Origin: an uncultured archaeon
GTDB lineage: Archaea; Nanobdellota; Nanobdellia; Woesearchaeales; UBA583
DNA length: 40,776 nt
Reading direction: 5' to 3'
NCBI GenBank assembly: GCA_937138345.1
Contig: CAKZOW010000019.1
Location: 1 to 40,776 of the forward strand
The notes under the pieces are model-generated. The model made no database searches and was not told the origin of the DNA. It saw nothing but the letters and a program-made list of their open reading frames with translations. Below are positions 7,824-18,648 of this stretch, one piece after another. The position numbers were made by a program, and so were the translations under genes. Position 1 is the first letter of the stretch; each line of letters begins with the position of its first letter.

Positions 7824-8420
7824 ATGAAACTCATTCTTGTAAGACATGGAGAAACTCATTGGAATACTTTAAATAAATTACAAAGTTTTACAGATAATGA
7901 ACTTAATGCTAATGGACATAATCAAGCAAAAAAAACTGCTTCTAAATTAAAAACAATCCATATTGATAAGATTATTTCCTCGCCTTTAATTCGTGCAATT
8001 CAAACTGCAGAACCACTTGCTCAAAAACATACCATTGAAATTGAAATTGATCAGAGAATTACTGAGAGAAATTATGGTGAACTTGAGGGTCAAAATTATT
8101 TAGAACTTGTTGAATTTATGAAGCCAATTATTAAAGAAGGGAGTTTTAGTAAATACAATATTGAAGAACCTCTCGATTTTAAAAAAAGAATTACTGAATT
8201 TTGGGAAGAATTACATGAGAAATATTTTGGTAAAACAGTAGTCTTAGTTAGCCACAGTGGTACATTTAAAATGCTTCTCTCAATTATTCAAAATGAATCT
8301 TATGAAATTATGAGGAAGAAAATTCATAAAACAAATGCTTCTATTTCCACTATTGAGTTTAGTGAACCTAATGTTATCTCACTTTTAGATATTGGATATG
8401 ATAAACATCTGGTTGATTAA
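7824..8420 (+). CDS. Histidine phosphatase superfamily protein
   Basis: A 198-residue branch-1 histidine phosphatase of the cofactor-dependent phosphoglycerate mutase-like fold. The phospho-acceptor motif is LVRHGETHWN (residues 5-14, acceptor His8). SSPLIRAIQTAE, ERNYGELEG and the second catalytic His in VSHSGTF follow in the expected order. The substrate cannot be deduced; members dephosphorylate sugars, nucleosides or other small phosphates. A TATA-like box near 7794 fits the ATG. Its stop codon overlaps, tail to tail, the stop of a leftover rnhB tail fragment, which suggests that an rnhB gene once ended directly against it. Confidence 0.92.
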   Translation: MKLILVRHGETHWNTLNKLQSFTDNELNANGHNQAKKTASKLKTIHIDKIISSPLIRAIQTAEPLAQKHTIEIEIDQRITERNYGELEGQNYLELVEFMKPIIKEGSFSKYNIEEPLDFKKRITEFWEELHEKYFGKTVVLVSHSGTFKMLLSIIQNESYEIMRKKIHKTNASISTIEFSEPNVISLLDIGYDKHLVD

Positions 8421-8512
8421 AAGTCATTCAAAGTTTTTTGTTTAGAATCACCTGCTAAGTCTTTATATGTTCGATCCAAAACTTTTTCTTGGACGTCAGA
8501 ACTAAGTCCTAA
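8417..8512 (-). pseudogene. Fossil 3' end of an rnhB gene
   Basis: A reading frame of 31 codons plus stop on the minus strand, whose last 17 residues (TYKDLAGDSKQKTLNDF) are identical to the C-terminus of the intact RNase HII just upstream on that strand. Over these 17 codons there are 7 nucleotide-level differences, all silent, and the stop is TAA instead of TGA. Upstream of this, similarity fades. Such purely silent divergence shows the fragment came from a functional, diverged rnhB allele, not from decay of a local copy. It overlaps the stop of the histidine phosphatase gene, so this may be the original gene position. Confidence 0.85.
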
Positions 8513-8523
8513 CTAAGAAAGAT

Positions 8524-8614
8524 CATAAATTCACGAATTTATGTCTCACATAAATTTTATAAATTTATGATGAAACATTTAGAAAAAGAACCATACAAAA
8601 TGCTAAGCATTTTG
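8524..8614. repeat. Cluster of three perfect hairpins between fossil and intact rnhB ends
   Basis: Three perfect inverted repeats follow one another: CATAAATT / AATTTATG at 8524-8543 (loop of 4), CATAAATTT / AAATTTATG at 8549-8569 (loop of 3) and CAAAATGCT / AGCATTTTG at 8596-8614 (loop of 1). The last sits 3 bases beyond the rnhB stop and could act at the mRNA 3' end. The CATAAAT arms recur after the stomatin gene at 11194. The cluster fills the gap between the tail fossil and the intact gene. Confidence 0.7.
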
Positions 8615-8617
8615 ATC

Positions 8618-9379
8618 TCAAAAATCATTTAATGTCTTTTGTTTTGAGTCTCCTGCTAAGTCTTTATATGTTTGCCAGGATTTTCTGAAGATGAAGTCAA
8701 ATTCTTTGTTATTGTAGTGTTCTTTAAGAAACGCTTTTGTTTTTGGATCTGCAGGATAACCAGAACCAACTACGTTGGAGTCTGGTGAAGCTTCTTCAGA
8801 AGCTAACTTGTCAGCATTTGCAGACTGACTTGAGTCCTTGGAGACTTGAGATAGGATTTTTCCAACATTTATATTTATTTGCTGCATTTCTTGTTCTCTT
8901 AGTTCTTTTGCAATAATTGAAGCCGCTCCTACAATTTCATATTTATCATCTGCTTTGTTTTCTGAGATAATTTTACATTCAAATGAAAGCCTTTTTAAGA
9001 TATCATCTCCAAATTTATCTGGCCTTGCAGTTAATGCATCAATTATCACTAATTGTGGTTTTTCGGATTCTAATATTTGAACTATTGCTTGAATTTCAAG
9101 TTCATTTAATTTTCCTCCTGCCGCATTATTTTGATCAATTAATGCTGGAGTTAGTTGAGCATATTTGATGTCCATATGTTGTTTTAGATCTTGATAAATT
9201 GCATTTCTTTTTTTTGGTGTTATCTTTTTTGAATCTTTTACTCCTAATTTTTTTAGAAGTTCTTGATACTTATTCATCTCTTTTAGTCCATTTGGTAAAT
9301 TAATTATAGAAAATCCAATAAACATTGATCCTAGAACAGGACCTTTTCCTGCTTCATCAATCCCAATTACTTTGTACAT
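8618..9379 (-). CDS. rnhB: Ribonuclease HII with an internal Ser/Ala-rich insertion
   Basis: RNase HII removes RNA from RNA-DNA hybrids, including single ribonucleotides. The 253 residues start with the active-site block VIGIDEAGKGPVLG (Asp8, Glu9). The family motifs KDSKK, the Asp of VIIDALTARP, GAASIIAK and GSGYPADPKT follow. The protein is longer than typical archaeal homologs. An extra stretch at about residues 178-203 (QVSKDSSQSANADKLASEEA and following) separates the REQEMQ helix from GSGYPADP, which are usually only a dozen residues apart. It is GC-richer than the rest and holds a palindrome, so it looks like an in-frame insert in a surface loop. A TATA-like TTTTATAAAAAG near 9396-9407 fits a leaderless start. 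Confidence 0.95.
   Translation of the reverse strand: MYKVIGIDEAGKGPVLGSMFIGFSIINLPNGLKEMNKYQELLKKLGVKDSKKITPKKRNAIYQDLKQHMDIKYAQLTPALIDQNNAAGGKLNELEIQAIVQILESEKPQLVIIDALTARPDKFGDDILKRLSFECKIISENKADDKYEIVGAASIIAKELREQEMQQININVGKILSQVSKDSSQSANADKLASEEASPDSNVVGSGYPADPKTKAFLKEHYNNKEFDFIFRKSWQTYKDLAGDSKQKTLNDF
8771..8848 (-). repeat. In-frame palindromic insert inside rnhB
   Basis: This part of rnhB encodes about 26 residues absent from the normal RNase HII layout. It is GC-richer than its surroundings and contains the perfect palindrome AGCTTCT / AGAAGCT (8789-8804) and two GACTTGAG repeats just beyond its edge (8828-8860). On the plus strand it shares the words GGTGA, GCTT and TGACTTGAG, in the same order, with the palindromic element after thioredoxin. 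It resembles in principle the in-frame palindromic elements known from Rickettsia. A relation to the intergenic elements here is a hypothesis. Confidence 0.5.
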
Positions 9380-9453: not shown

Positions 9454-9492
9454 TTATTTGTTTTCTTCAAGCCAAGCTTTCAAGTCTCCATC
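9454..9492 (-). pseudogene. Thioredoxin gene tail fossil I (diverged)
   Basis: Encodes RDGDLKAWLEENK followed by TAA, against SDDDLKAWLEENK and TAA in the intact gene. The 29 bases at the stop side are identical. Farther in there are two silent changes and one replacement (Asp to Gly). It lies farthest from the intact gene and is the most diverged of the three tails. Confidence 0.8.
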
Positions 9493-9562
9493 GCGGGCGA
9501 AACCGCATCGCAATGGTTGAGCTTTTCGACACATAAAGTGTCTCAAGAGCTGAAAAATAAAA
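9493..9562 (-). repeat. Palindromic element I after thioredoxin
   Basis: On the minus strand it reads CAGCTCTTGAGACAC, loop TTTAT, GTGTCGAAAAGCT. The perfect GACAC/GTGTC stem (9528-9542) is flanked by GA on both sides and by an outer AGCT...AGCT stem. The far end contains CGATGCGG, also present at the end of element II. The core CTTGAG, stem, loop, stem, CGAAA is shared with element II and with the hairpin at 31481-31512. It separates tail fossils I and II. Confidence 0.6.
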
Positions 9563-9631
9563 TTATTTGTTTTCTTCAAGCCAAGCTTTTAGATCATCAT
9601 CAGATAGTGCTCCGTTTTTGTCTGCAATTAC
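9563..9631 (-). pseudogene. Thioredoxin gene tail fossil II (near-identical)
   Basis: Its 22 codons plus stop encode VIADKNGALSDDDLKAWLEE and NK, identical to the last 22 residues of the intact thioredoxin. There are only two nucleotide differences (CTA for CTG twice), both silent. Homology stops sharply at the inner end, where it joins sequence of element II. It has no start or promoter and cannot encode a thioredoxin. Confidence 0.9.
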
Positions 9632-9718
9632 CTTCCGCATCGATCTTTTCTTTTAGCGCTCGTTTCGATTGCTTTGCAATCTCAAGTCACTAAAGAAAAG
9701 CCTCACCAAAGAAAAAAA
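9632..9718 (-). repeat. Palindromic element II after thioredoxin (CTTTTCTT family)
   Basis: Outer arms CTTTTCTTTAG and CTAAAAGAAAAG on the minus strand (plus-strand 9690-9700 and 9645-9656) enclose an inner perfect hairpin GATTGC / GCAATC with a 3-base loop (9667-9681). The inner hairpin is bounded by CTTGA and GAAAC. The side next to trx reads TTTCTTTGGTGAGG before the arm, closely matching the TTCTTTTGGTGCATG before the arm at infB (15363-15373). It lies directly between the trx stop and tail fossil II. Confidence 0.7.
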
Positions 9719-10039
9719 TTATTTGTTTTCTTCAAGCCAAGCTTTCAGATCATCATCAGACAGTGCTCCGTTTTTGTCTGCAATTACTTTTCCGTCTTTG
9801 ATGAGAAGGATTGTTGGTATTGACATTACTTGGTATGTTTGTGCTACTTCTCCTACTTCATCTACATTTACTTTTACAAACTGAACATCAGATACTTCTT
9901 CTGATACTCTCTCAAATACTGGTCCAAACATTTTACAAGGACCACACCATGGAGCCCAGAAGTCAACTACAGTTACTTTATCTGACTCTAATACTTTTGT
10001 ATTAAATTCTTCTTCGCTTTTAATTTCAATGTATACCAT
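9719..10039 (-). CDS. trxA: Thioredoxin
   Basis: A cytoplasmic thiol-disulfide oxidoreductase of 106 residues, the standard size. The redox motif WCGPC is at residues 31-35 within VDFWAPWCGPC. VKVNVDEVGEVAQTYQV and the cis-proline loop SIPTILLIKDGK follow as in classical thioredoxins. A TATA-like CTTTATAAATAATC at about 10063-10076 fits a leaderless ATG at 10039. No thioredoxin reductase is in the window. The 3' end of this gene appears twice more downstream as fossils, so the locus has a history of repeated rearrangement. Confidence 0.97.
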   Translation of the reverse strand: MVYIEIKSEEEFNTKVLESDKVTVVDFWAPWCGPCKMFGPVFERVSEEVSDVQFVKVNVDEVGEVAQTYQVMSIPTILLIKDGKVIADKNGALSDDDLKAWLEENK

Positions 10040-15253: not shown

Positions 15254-15323
15254 AAAGCATGCACCAAAAGAATACGCTTCGCGTTTTATAATCCCCATAA
15301 GGTATCTTCTTTACGCATAATCT
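15254..15323 (-). pseudogene. Exact 70-bp duplicate of the infB 3' end
   Basis: Bases 15254-15323 are identical to 15370-15439. The repeat carries the last codons of infB (RKEDTLWGL and TAA), the hairpin ACGC/GCGT (15274-15284) and the start of the palindromic arm. The two copies are 116 bp apart with 46 bp between them. The fragment has no start codon context of its own. The lack of any difference makes this the youngest of the gene-tail fossils. Confidence 0.92.
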
Positions 15324-15373
15324 ACAGCGCACCTTTTCTTTAGCAGTCGCTATACATAGCTCCTTAAGAAAAG
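15324..15373 (-). repeat. Palindromic element after infB (CTTTTCTT family)
   Basis: Outer arms CTTTTCTT (15333-15340) and AAGAAAAG (15366-15373) enclose the small hairpin GCTAT / ATAGC (15349-15360, loop AC). On the minus strand the element reads TTCTTTTGGTGCATG before the arm, and the other arm reads GCTAAAGAAAAG; both match the corresponding parts of element II after thioredoxin. It lies exactly between the infB 3' region and its duplicate. Confidence 0.75.
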
Positions 15374-15401
15374 CATGCACCAAAAGAATACGCTTCGCGT
15401 T

Positions 15402-17186
15402 TTATAATCCCCATAAGGTATCTTCTTTACGCATAATCTCTGCTATTTCTTTTAAGGTAGAGATCTCATCTTTGGAGAGAAGGTCTGTGTTTTTTTTGAG
15501 TTTTCTAAAGTTTTCTTCACCCATAAAGGAATAGAGTACTGAGTCTTCTTGAGCATGTCTACCAATTACTAAGTCATCAATTGATACTGCTGCTTGTTCT
15601 CCTAGAGTTAGTTCTTTTAGAGTTTCGTCCCTATCCTTGATTGTTTTAATTGAACCTACTTTTTTACCAAAATCTGTCATTAAAGATACATTTGGAAGTG
15701 CTTTTCCTCCTTGTGTTTCAACTCCAACTACTGCTGGACCTGATGCTCTGAAAATACAATTAGGTAAAATTTTAATTTTAAATGGCATAGTGAGCTCAGC
15801 CAAACGTGCTCTTTCAATTTCTTTTTCTTTATTTTCAATCCACTCTTGTGCATCTTCAATTAATTTATAGATAATATCATTTGAAATTACTTCAACACCA
15901 TATTCATCTGCCATTGCTTTCATTTCATCGTCAAGTTGTTGTGAGAAATTTAAAATTAAAGCATTTTTTGGATTTTTCTTTAAATCCGCTCCTGCATCAA
16001 TAATATCAATTTTAGTAACTTTTCCAATTACTGCTTTTCTTAGAGGTATTTCATGTTCTTCTAAGATGTGGGCTAAAGCTTCTAATGAACCTAGAGTATC
16101 TGCTTTTACTAGAATTCCTTCTTTATTTGAAATAATATTGATGTCTGCTTGTTCTGCTTCAAGCTCTGCCCTAAGTTGAGCTACAAATTCAGGCTTTGCG
16201 TTTTTTCTATAGGTAATAATTGGCATTCCTGCTTTAATATCTTTGAACTCAGGACATGCAAGTTTCATACCAGATGCTGCTTTTTCTTCTTTAATTGTTT
16301 TAAATTTAGTTGATGAATCCCTAATTTCTTTCATCTCATTTGGTTTTAAAATACTCTTTAATTTTGATTCTTGAACACCATCTACATCTAAAGCTAGTAC
16401 TTGATCCCCTGCTTTTACTATACCATCATATAAAATTACATCAATTGTTTTTCCAAGACCCGGATAATCTTTTACTTCTAAAATTACTCCTTTTGAGATG
16501 TCTTCATTTTCAATTGTTAATTTTTTCTCCATATATTTTTGAGTTAAACCAACTAATGTTGAGAGTAATTCTTTAATTCCTTCTCCTGTTTTAGCTGAAA
16601 CAGGAACAACAGCGATTTTTTTTGTAAAGTCATCAACACGATCATATCTATCTGCTTCATAACCAAATTCATTAATTTTACCTACGATTTCATATACTTT
16701 TTCTTCTAAGATATAATTAATGTCTTGTCTTTGTTTTTCAATTGATTGAAGAAGTTTTTCTTTTGGATGAGATTGCCAACCAGGCATATTATCTACTTTA
16801 TTTGCTGCTACAATAAATGGTGTTTTCATTGATTTTAAAATTTCAATAGCCTCAATTGTTTGTGGTTTAAAACCTTCATTAATGTCTACTACTAATACTC
16901 CAATATCTGAGATTGACCCACCTCTTTTTCTCAGTGAGGTAAATGCTTTGTGACCTGGAGTGTCAATAAATAAAAGCCCTGGTACTTTGATTGCTTCTTT
17001 TGGAATAAATCCTTCAACTGATTTTATTAAATCTTTTTTAGGTACTTCTGTTGCTCCAATATGTTGAGTAATACCTCCTGCTTCTTTTGCAATAATTGTT
17101 GAATTTCTAATATAGTCAAGAAAAGAAGTTTTTCCATGGTCTACATGTCCTAGTACTGAGATAATTGGTTGTCTTAAATATGCCAT
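15402..17186 (-). CDS. infB: Translation initiation factor aIF5B (IF-2 type)
   Basis: A GTPase that promotes initiator tRNA placement and subunit joining. The 594-residue length is typical for archaea. G-motifs are clear: GHVDHGKTS (13-21), the switch region GGITQHIGA, DTPGHKAF, and NKVD in IVAANKVDNMPG. The long DNMPGW insertion after NKVD is a known aIF5B trait. Domain II (KGVILEVKDYPGLG), domain III and the C-terminal barrel (GPAVVGVETQGGKA, VGSIKTIKDRDETL) follow. An AGGTGA Shine-Dalgarno sequence sits about 6 bases before the ATG, unusual in this window where most genes look leaderless. The 3' end is duplicated downstream. Confidence 0.97.
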   Translation of the reverse strand: MAYLRQPIISVLGHVDHGKTSFLDYIRNSTIIAKEAGGITQHIGATEVPKKDLIKSVEGFIPKEAIKVPGLLFIDTPGHKAFTSLRKRGGSISDIGVLVVDINEGFKPQTIEAIEILKSMKTPFIVAANKVDNMPGWQSHPKEKLLQSIEKQRQDINYILEEKVYEIVGKINEFGYEADRYDRVDDFTKKIAVVPVSAKTGEGIKELLSTLVGLTQKYMEKKLTIENEDISKGVILEVKDYPGLGKTIDVILYDGIVKAGDQVLALDVDGVQESKLKSILKPNEMKEIRDSSTKFKTIKEEKAASGMKLACPEFKDIKAGMPIITYRKNAKPEFVAQLRAELEAEQADINIISNKEGILVKADTLGSLEALAHILEEHEIPLRKAVIGKVTKIDIIDAGADLKKNPKNALILNFSQQLDDEMKAMADEYGVEVISNDIIYKLIEDAQEWIENKEKEIERARLAELTMPFKIKILPNCIFRASGPAVVGVETQGGKALPNVSLMTDFGKKVGSIKTIKDRDETLKELTLGEQAAVSIDDLVIGRHAQEDSVLYSFMGEENFRKLKKNTDLLSKDEISTLKEIAEIMRKEDTLWGL

Positions 17187-17920: not shown

Positions 17921-18580
17921 TTAAATTAATTCCTCGTTTACAATCAACTGTGCTAATTGTTCAAATAATTCTTTATGATTTTCGGTGTAATAATGTGCTT
18001 TGTATAAATCTTCTTTTTGAAGAGTTGTTCCAATTGCTACTACATCAAAACCTCCCTTTAGTGCAGATTCAATACCCATTGGTGCATTTTCAATTACCAT
18101 ACATTCATTTGCTTCAAATCCTGAGAATTGTTGTGCTTTTAGAAAGGGTTCCGGGTGAGGTTTTCCAAGAGACACATCACATGCAGAAATCACATTATCA
18201 AAAATTCCTGGGAAAAATCTCTCAACACATTCAAGAACTCTTTCTCTTGGAGAACCCGATACAACAGATAAATGGAGTCCTTGTTCTTTAAGTGTTAAGA
18301 GTTGTTCAAAAATAGGATAAGATTCTATTACAAAATATTGTTTTTGGAGTTGTCTTTTTTGTTTTTGAAGTTGCATAATTTCTCCAAGGGATAATTCTAC
18401 CATATGTGTTGCTGCTAATTCTTGAACCATTAACTCCGATTTCATTCCTTCATAGAGCATAAGTTCTCTCATTGAAGCATAAATACCCACTTCCTCGAGT
18501 ACTTTTTTCCAAGCAGTAAAATTTCCTTCAATAGAGTCAACTAGTACACCGTCCATATCGAAAAATAGAGCCTTCTTCAT
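17921..18580 (-). CDS. HAD-family phosphatase, beta-phosphoglucomutase-like (second of pair)
   Basis: A 219-residue paralog of the neighbouring HAD gene. Motif I is FFDMDGVLVDS, motif II VSGSPRERV, motif III GKPHPEPFLKAQ. In motif IV the usual Glu-Asp reads Glu-Asn (VIENAPMGIES), so one of the Mg2+-coordinating acids is replaced, which may alter metal binding. The cap is again of the phosphoglucomutase type. Start choice is unusual: the ATG at 18580 overlaps the stop of a 23-codon frame that duplicates this gene's own first codons. The promoter (TTTATAAG near 18675) lies before that upstream frame, so translation of the gene may depend on re-initiation. Confidence 0.88.
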   Translation of the reverse strand: MKKALFFDMDGVLVDSIEGNFTAWKKVLEEVGIYASMRELMLYEGMKSELMVQELAATHMVELSLGEIMQLQKQKRQLQKQYFVIESYPIFEQLLTLKEQGLHLSVVSGSPRERVLECVERFFPGIFDNVISACDVSLGKPHPEPFLKAQQFSGFEANECMVIENAPMGIESALKGGFDVVAIGTTLQKEDLYKAHYYTENHKELFEQLAQLIVNEELI

Positions 18581-18648
18581 TCTTCAGAATCCCCCATTTT
18601 TGATCGCTTTTGTTCCAAATCCATATCGAAAAATAGAGCCTTTTTCAT
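18577..18648 (-). pseudogene. Duplicated 5' head of the HAD gene forming an upstream open frame
   Basis: An ATG at 18648 starts a 23-codon frame whose first ten residues, MKKALFFDMD, repeat the first ten of the downstream HAD gene. It matches that gene for 29 bases with one silent change (AAA for AAG). It then diverges into LEQKRSKMGDSEE and ends with TGA overlapping the real ATG. The ATG at 18648 is the one placed correctly relative to the TATA-like box near 18675. It is both a gene-head fossil and a candidate translated uORF. Confidence 0.85.

Follow-up and report, generated by a model that had tools for sequence, protein, structure and literature searches.

Hairpin elements between paired copies of gene 3′ ends in one genus of small-genome archaea: candidate mobile DNA that re-ends its host genes

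Why is the thioredoxin (trx) gene of a small-genome archaeon followed by two further copies of its own 3′ end, and what are the palindromes that divide them? In the 40.8-kb window, the whole stretch of DNA that was analysed, the order on the minus strand is trx gene, element 1, tail copy b, element 2 and tail copy c, with the following features.

9719..10039, minus strand: trx gene with the intact proximal tail a (Pfam PF00085, E = 8e-32; repeats)
9719-9790, minus strand: duplicated part of trx tail a (repeats)
9635..9714, minus strand: element 1 (R1 86.4 bits, R2 76 bits)
9708-9714, minus strand: T-strand of element 1, TTTCTTT (triplex match 7/7)
9692-9700 and 9645-9653, minus strand: arms of stem P1 of element 1
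9635-9644, minus strand: end of element 1, ATCGATGCGG
9563..9634, minus strand: trx tail copy b, 72 nt, with its own stop codon (94% over 82 nt)
9487..9562, minus strand: element 2 (by-eye sequence comparison)
9454..9486, minus strand: trx tail copy c, with its own stop codon (repeats)

The pairs that reached the repeat threshold in the window were five of gene tails (three trx, one RNase HII and one IF2) and one of a gene start; because so few pairs do so in 40.8 kb, chance pairing of the tails can be excluded. The initial annotation had reported trx tail copies separated by palindromic elements, as is indeed found at 9635-9714 and 9487-9562. It had counted two silent differences in copy b, which is right if a site at the junction edge is omitted; otherwise three CDS sites differ from the intact tail, all of them silently. 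In copy c, for which two silent differences and one replacement had been claimed, the silent ones are real (GAT>GAC and CTG>TTG), but the replacement is a junction codon, where element sequence starts. By eye, element 2 is a rearranged relative of element 1 with a CTTGAGAC..GTGTCGAAAAG core and a GCGATGCGG end; it lacks the match between T-strand and P1 and was not picked up by the covariance models.

A genome search with the trx region retrieved the palindrome at the ends of genes other than trx: element 1, lying between trx copies a and b, recurs genome-wide, flanked by the tails of other genes. The palindromes are members of a single conserved family of elements, which the initial annotation had not recognised. 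It had suggested a genome search for tails of other genes in the same order of divergence; RNase HII, IF2 and others share the arrangement of tail, element and tail. The two further loci in the window are as follows.

8618..9379, minus strand: RNase HII gene (PF01351, E = 1e-30)
8618-8670, minus strand: proximal RNase HII tail
8470..8617, minus strand: long element at the RNase HII end (weak R2 match, 19.6 bits)
8582-8590, minus strand: T-strand of the RNase HII element, TTCTTTTTC
8515-8521 and 8482-8490, minus strand: P1 arms of the RNase HII element
8417..8469, minus strand: distal RNase HII tail, with the same protein sequence (7 silent changes, 0 replacement)
15402..17186, minus strand: translation initiation factor IF2 gene (PF11987, PF14578)
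15370-15439, minus strand: proximal duplicated segment of IF2 (exact 70-nt repeat)
15322..15388, minus strand: element at the IF2 end, with P0 arms GCA/TGC (R1 60.9 bits; triplex 7/7)
15254..15323, minus strand: distal IF2 tail (70/70 nt identical)

RNase HII adjoins trx and repeats its arrangement of tail, element and tail; its element runs hairpin, T-strand, extra hairpin and P1 arms, and its distal tail stops with TAA and the proximal one with TGA. At IF2, the 70-nt repeat takes in the first 19 nt of an element. In the gene-start pair of the window, 29 nt of a gene START, ATGAAGAAGGCTCTATTTTTCGATATGGA, recur almost exactly (18552-18580 and 18620-18648); the copy lies 68 nt upstream of the gene at 17921-18580 on the minus strand and has no recognisable element.

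Covariance model R1 found 23 elements in the source genome (G000) at E < 0.01; three more recognised by eye, at RNase HII, at V-ATPase (its second element) and at trx (element 2), bring the total to about 26. A recurring process at gene 3′ ends, as the initial annotation had proposed, is thus borne out, and so are repeated events of one kind, as AspRS and V-ATPase I each carry three tails, like trx. The elements are non-coding and about 60-150 nt long. Nearly every one stands in gene sense between two copies of the 3′ end of its host gene, and the upstream ORF, wherever readable, has the same sense as the element. At least 18 elements of the source genome have the same gene end on both flanks, mostly over 26-132 nt with 85-100% identity. 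Across elements, the duplicated tail comprises the last 10-40 codons of the gene, and the distal copy begins within a few nucleotides of the element end. Many hosts are housekeeping genes; those in the source genome include RFC, Hef, V-ATPase I, AspRS, aRF1, IF2, FtsZ, enolase, a RimK-like ligase and an SNF2 helicase. The copies are identical at IF2, RFC and V-ATPase, so that part of the insertions must be recent or derive from an allele with the same sequence.

By the covariance model, five congeners have 1-5 elements each, at SecY, TopA, RNase J and a PIN protein among others. Orthologous sites in congeners are often empty: at ftsZ in four genomes, and at IF2, enolase, AspRS and V-ATPase I in the congeners whose loci were read. 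The hef and rfc genes of the congener G003 bear insertions of their own, in rfc at the same codon as in the source genome. In 288 genomes from the order and 371 from the phylum, a covariance search gave no credible match in other genera, and the family is confined to one genus of small-genome archaea. Gene content suggests that the source organism is such an archaeon, probably of the DPANN group. A weak match in G047, of another family, was rejected, as it lies beside an apparent 5S rRNA and has no tail copies; three pattern matches in genome contigs outside the genus were rejected for the same lack of tail copies. Viral contigs contained no elements. An assembly artefact is unlikely, since the congener genomes show the same anatomy. 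Rfam gave no gathering-level match in the window, and its E-value mode, run on eight element loci, no match to the element.

Several further observations concern individual loci. G003 contains a larger subtype of the element (L078 1900-2150 and 2400-2850) sharing AAAACGGAGAAA.CCTCAAGATGGCTTTCGATGTGACGCGTTAA, hosted by the neighbouring rfc and an IscU-like gene with a tail copy at each. In G004:C8 (L088/L049), an element lies 3′ of an ORF that, judged by eye, ends like a restriction endonuclease; this locus is an exception, as a search for a distal tail copy found none. The ends of contigs G000:C157 (L010/L021) and G000:C7 (L005/L038) fall inside tail-element-tail arrays. The assembly probably breaks at these arrays and, because both contigs end inside them, the true copy number may be higher than that counted. 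Long-distance tail copies around large cargo were absent from the sequence examined.

The elements have a common architecture. In gene sense, an often present hairpin after the stop codon is followed by the 7-nt T-strand, GG, the 3-bp helix P0 and the 9-bp pyrimidine/purine stem P1; then come the inner helices P2 and P3, the purine arm of P1, P0, about 6 nt resembling ATGCGG, and the distal tail. A hairpin follows the stop codon in 15 of the 19 element genes, as against 11 of the 31 other genes in the window. In the paired columns of the alignment, 90.7% of the cells pair, and 16 of 20 pairs show double-sided change; 113 cells are changed on both sides, compared with 31 in shuffles and 7-21 when the columns are slid. 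The outer helix P0 pairs in 93 of 96 cases. The T-strand matches the purine arm of the stem, read in parallel, over its full length in 30 of 34 elements, a figure for which strands were assigned by eye and which includes related, non-independent elements; shuffling gave a mean of 10.5 and a maximum of 20 in 20000, and an antiparallel reading accounts for 8. The two strands co-vary through the states TTCTTTT/AAGAAAA, TTTCTTT/AAAGAAA, TTTTCTT/AAAAGAA and TTTTTCT/AAAAAGA. This co-variation is the signature of a pyrimidine triple helix, and we infer that such a helix may form. Because G-T pairs in P1-P3 are very few, the element probably acts as DNA.

The place of entry shows a preference of its own. 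Of 34 host genes, 11 have GATG near the insertion point p, where other in-phase positions would lead one to expect 3.6, and the element frequently ends in GATGCGG. The two together suggest a degenerate recognition core or an annealing step.

The layers had initially been taken for fossils of increasing age, a view that the base changes contradict. In the age-or-DISPLACEMENT test, which used the tail pairs of the source genome with the junction codons left out, 52 silent and 10 replacement changes were counted. A constrained proximal copy and a dead distal one predict 67% replacement changes, against 16% observed (p = 2e-16; p = 9e-8 minus the three most divergent loci). Because the silent changes far exceed the dead-distal expectation, both copies are read as having coded for protein while diverging. 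Distal tails read by eye close with a stop codon; a premature TGA in the distal enolase tail (L032 / G000:C158) is among the few signs of decay. In the PIN-domain gene, comparison of G003 with the congener G005 gave a third-position divergence of 25% in the body and 54% in the gene-attached tail, and the distal tail of G003 differs from G005 at 3 of 39 nt. Because the distal copy nearly matches the orthologue while the proximal one exceeds the divergence of the body, the distal tail of this gene is judged to be the native one and the gene-attached copy anomalous. Hef and AspRS lean in the same direction as PIN, and enolase in the opposite one; pooled over four genes, the polarity is 34 distal to 21 proximal, with p = 0.10 for sites that are not independent. 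Silent recoding of tails is seen at PIN, RNase HII, L018 and AspRS. The order along the DNA is thus probably one of displacement, the outermost tail being the most native, and not one of decay.

The explanation that we favour, with a confidence somewhat above even, is that non-coding mobile elements split a gene near its end and close it again by means of another copy of the tail, which has often diverged, and that they spread in a homing-like manner. The element would break the reading frame at p, about 8-40 codons ahead of the stop and often near GATG; the gene would be re-closed in frame by a further copy of its 3′ end with a stop codon, often followed by a hairpin, and the original tail would stay beyond the element. 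The pyrimidine strand would lie parallel to the purine arm of the stem and form the third strand. Tail duplication probably accompanies the founding of new sites, and insertion with a long target duplication, target-primed or other, may be how they begin; the occupied allele would then pass between strains by homing-like recombination, which would be why the tail attached to the gene is often an allele that has diverged in DNA and yet encodes the same protein. Mobility is suggested by the distribution and the anatomy of the elements, and homing would presumably involve a partner nuclease or recombinase. Several facts stand against this explanation: the searches for partner enzymes given below identified none, the polarity pooled over four genes is not significant, sense-only placement has no obvious reason in a DNA element that needs no transcription, and plain target duplication would account equally well for the identical copies at IF2, RFC and V-ATPase.

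The last two of these speak for the main rival, an insertion that duplicates an unusually long stretch of the target site (about 25-130 bp), for instance by SINE-like target priming at nicks p and q, with the silent changes introduced later by allele exchange. It would yield identical copies directly, its RNA intermediate would account for the sense-only placement, and the enrichment at p of GATG, resembling the element end, agrees with it. We nevertheless consider it rather unlikely, as the divergence is silent-only up to saturation, the polarity of the PIN gene runs against it, G-U pairs are very few for a passage through RNA, and no reverse transcriptase (RVT_1) was found in the source genome, which is about 95% complete, with a positive control. 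A different use of RNA, in which the element is the scaffold and the native tail the guide of a homing system, the proximal tail being recoded against cutting as in a natural home-and-rescue drive, would explain why the distal tail lies directly 3′ of a structured scaffold and why tails are silently recoded at the four loci named above. The proximal tail, however, equals the supposed guide exactly at IF2, RFC and V-ATPase, no T-rich target motif was found ahead of p, G-U pairs are again very few, and the source genome has no match to TnpB/Cas12f (PF07282), matches being found in G002 and G004 only; we regard this reading as improbable.

An immobile 3′-UTR element of the host, which would serve as a terminator or stability element and have multiplied through ordinary duplication, seems about as improbable. 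Some RNA 3′ ends are stabilised by triple helices, and both the placement in sense at gene ends and the enrichment of post-stop hairpins at element genes agree with such a role, but the second tail copy and the empty orthologous sites would be unexplained, as would the absence of the element outside one genus. Decaying fossils of past insertions are the least probable of all and can be given very little weight: the layers at trx, AspRS and V-ATPase and the nonsense change in distal enolase are as this reading would have them, but the excess of silent changes argues strongly against a dead distal copy. We also considered the distal tail as a small gene starting from an ATG at the element end; this was dropped, as the ATG is in frame at some loci and not at others.

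Among candidate partner enzymes, tyrosine recombinases are present in all six genomes of the genus, unlinked to the elements, and Y1 transposase (PF01797) is absent from all six, with a positive control. The source genome has stand-alone LAGLIDADG ORFs at L105 (G000:C117) and L104 (G000:C74), the former adjoining a DNA-polymerase-like gene; both contigs look viral and may be carried by, or binned with, the genome. These ORFs were rejected as autonomous versions of the element, having no elements or tail copies nearby. L081 (G004:C35) has a Cas12a-like ORF of 485 aa, in which RuvC and a zinc ribbon were recognised by eye, and after it a BRO-like ORF.

If the favoured explanation is correct, mobile DNA without genes of its own can preserve host genes by re-ending them, and insertion into housekeeping genes such as FtsZ, IF2, RFC and AspRS becomes tolerable. 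The three-strand co-variation would be a rare case of a triplex-forming sequence under clear selection. The C-terminal codons of host genes may be foreign or recoded, which bears on gene phylogenies, and assemblies may break at tail-element arrays.

A search of the literature (open-access papers) found no description of such an element, and for each family tested it lacks a defining feature. It has the appearance of mobile DNA of a kind not described before. Like MITEs, it is short, dispersed, non-coding and hairpin-forming; unlike them, it has no terminal inverted repeats at the insertion edges (the stem arms are internal and the T-strand is at one edge only), no short fixed target duplication (the copies being about 23-130 nt), a position always at gene ends, in sense where readable, and no parent transposon that we could find. 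The palindromes of REP/RAYT and IS200/IS605 systems are likewise short, strand-specific hairpins, frequently near gene ends, but the genus is without the Y1 HUH transposase and, to our knowledge, flanking gene-tail copies are not among the features of REPs. Integrative elements at gene 3′ ends restore the gene end through a copy of the attachment site; here there is no integrase gene and no cargo, and many different genes are hosts, with copies of about 23-130 nt. Integron attC sites share the imperfect DNA hairpin, the 3′ end of a coding unit and the single orientation, but the units here are gene tails rather than whole cassettes, and no attC core boxes were seen by eye. It is tempting, though no more than tentative, to regard the triplex-forming hairpin as a new class of archaeal non-coding selfish DNA that spreads by homing into the 3′ ends of genes and gives each gene a new end, a version of its own tail with synonymous differences, as a natural counterpart to recoded home-and-rescue drives.

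The closest parallel is found in fungal mitochondria, where mobile ORFs have produced gene hybrids at atp6 of Allomyces and at atp6, atp9, cox2 and nad3 of Glomus (PMC3630166). In these hybrids, a foreign C-terminus closes the gene and is followed by the mobile segment and then the native C-terminus; the DNA of the two copies differs while their proteins hardly do, and it is the native copy that matches the close relative (PMC3630166). A native distal tail with a divergent, protein-conserving tail attached to the gene is seen at PIN in G003, and tail copies in general diverge almost only at silent sites; the pooled polarity is not significant (p = 0.10). The fungal segment encodes a homing endonuclease, whereas the archaeal one has a length of about 60-150 nt, codes for nothing, keeps a conserved structure and is present in about 26 copies in one genome, with no homing-endonuclease ORF between the tails. 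Body, replacement tail, mobile segment and native tail nevertheless follow in the same order in both, and because of this match in anatomy we favour a mobile DNA element that re-ends genes.
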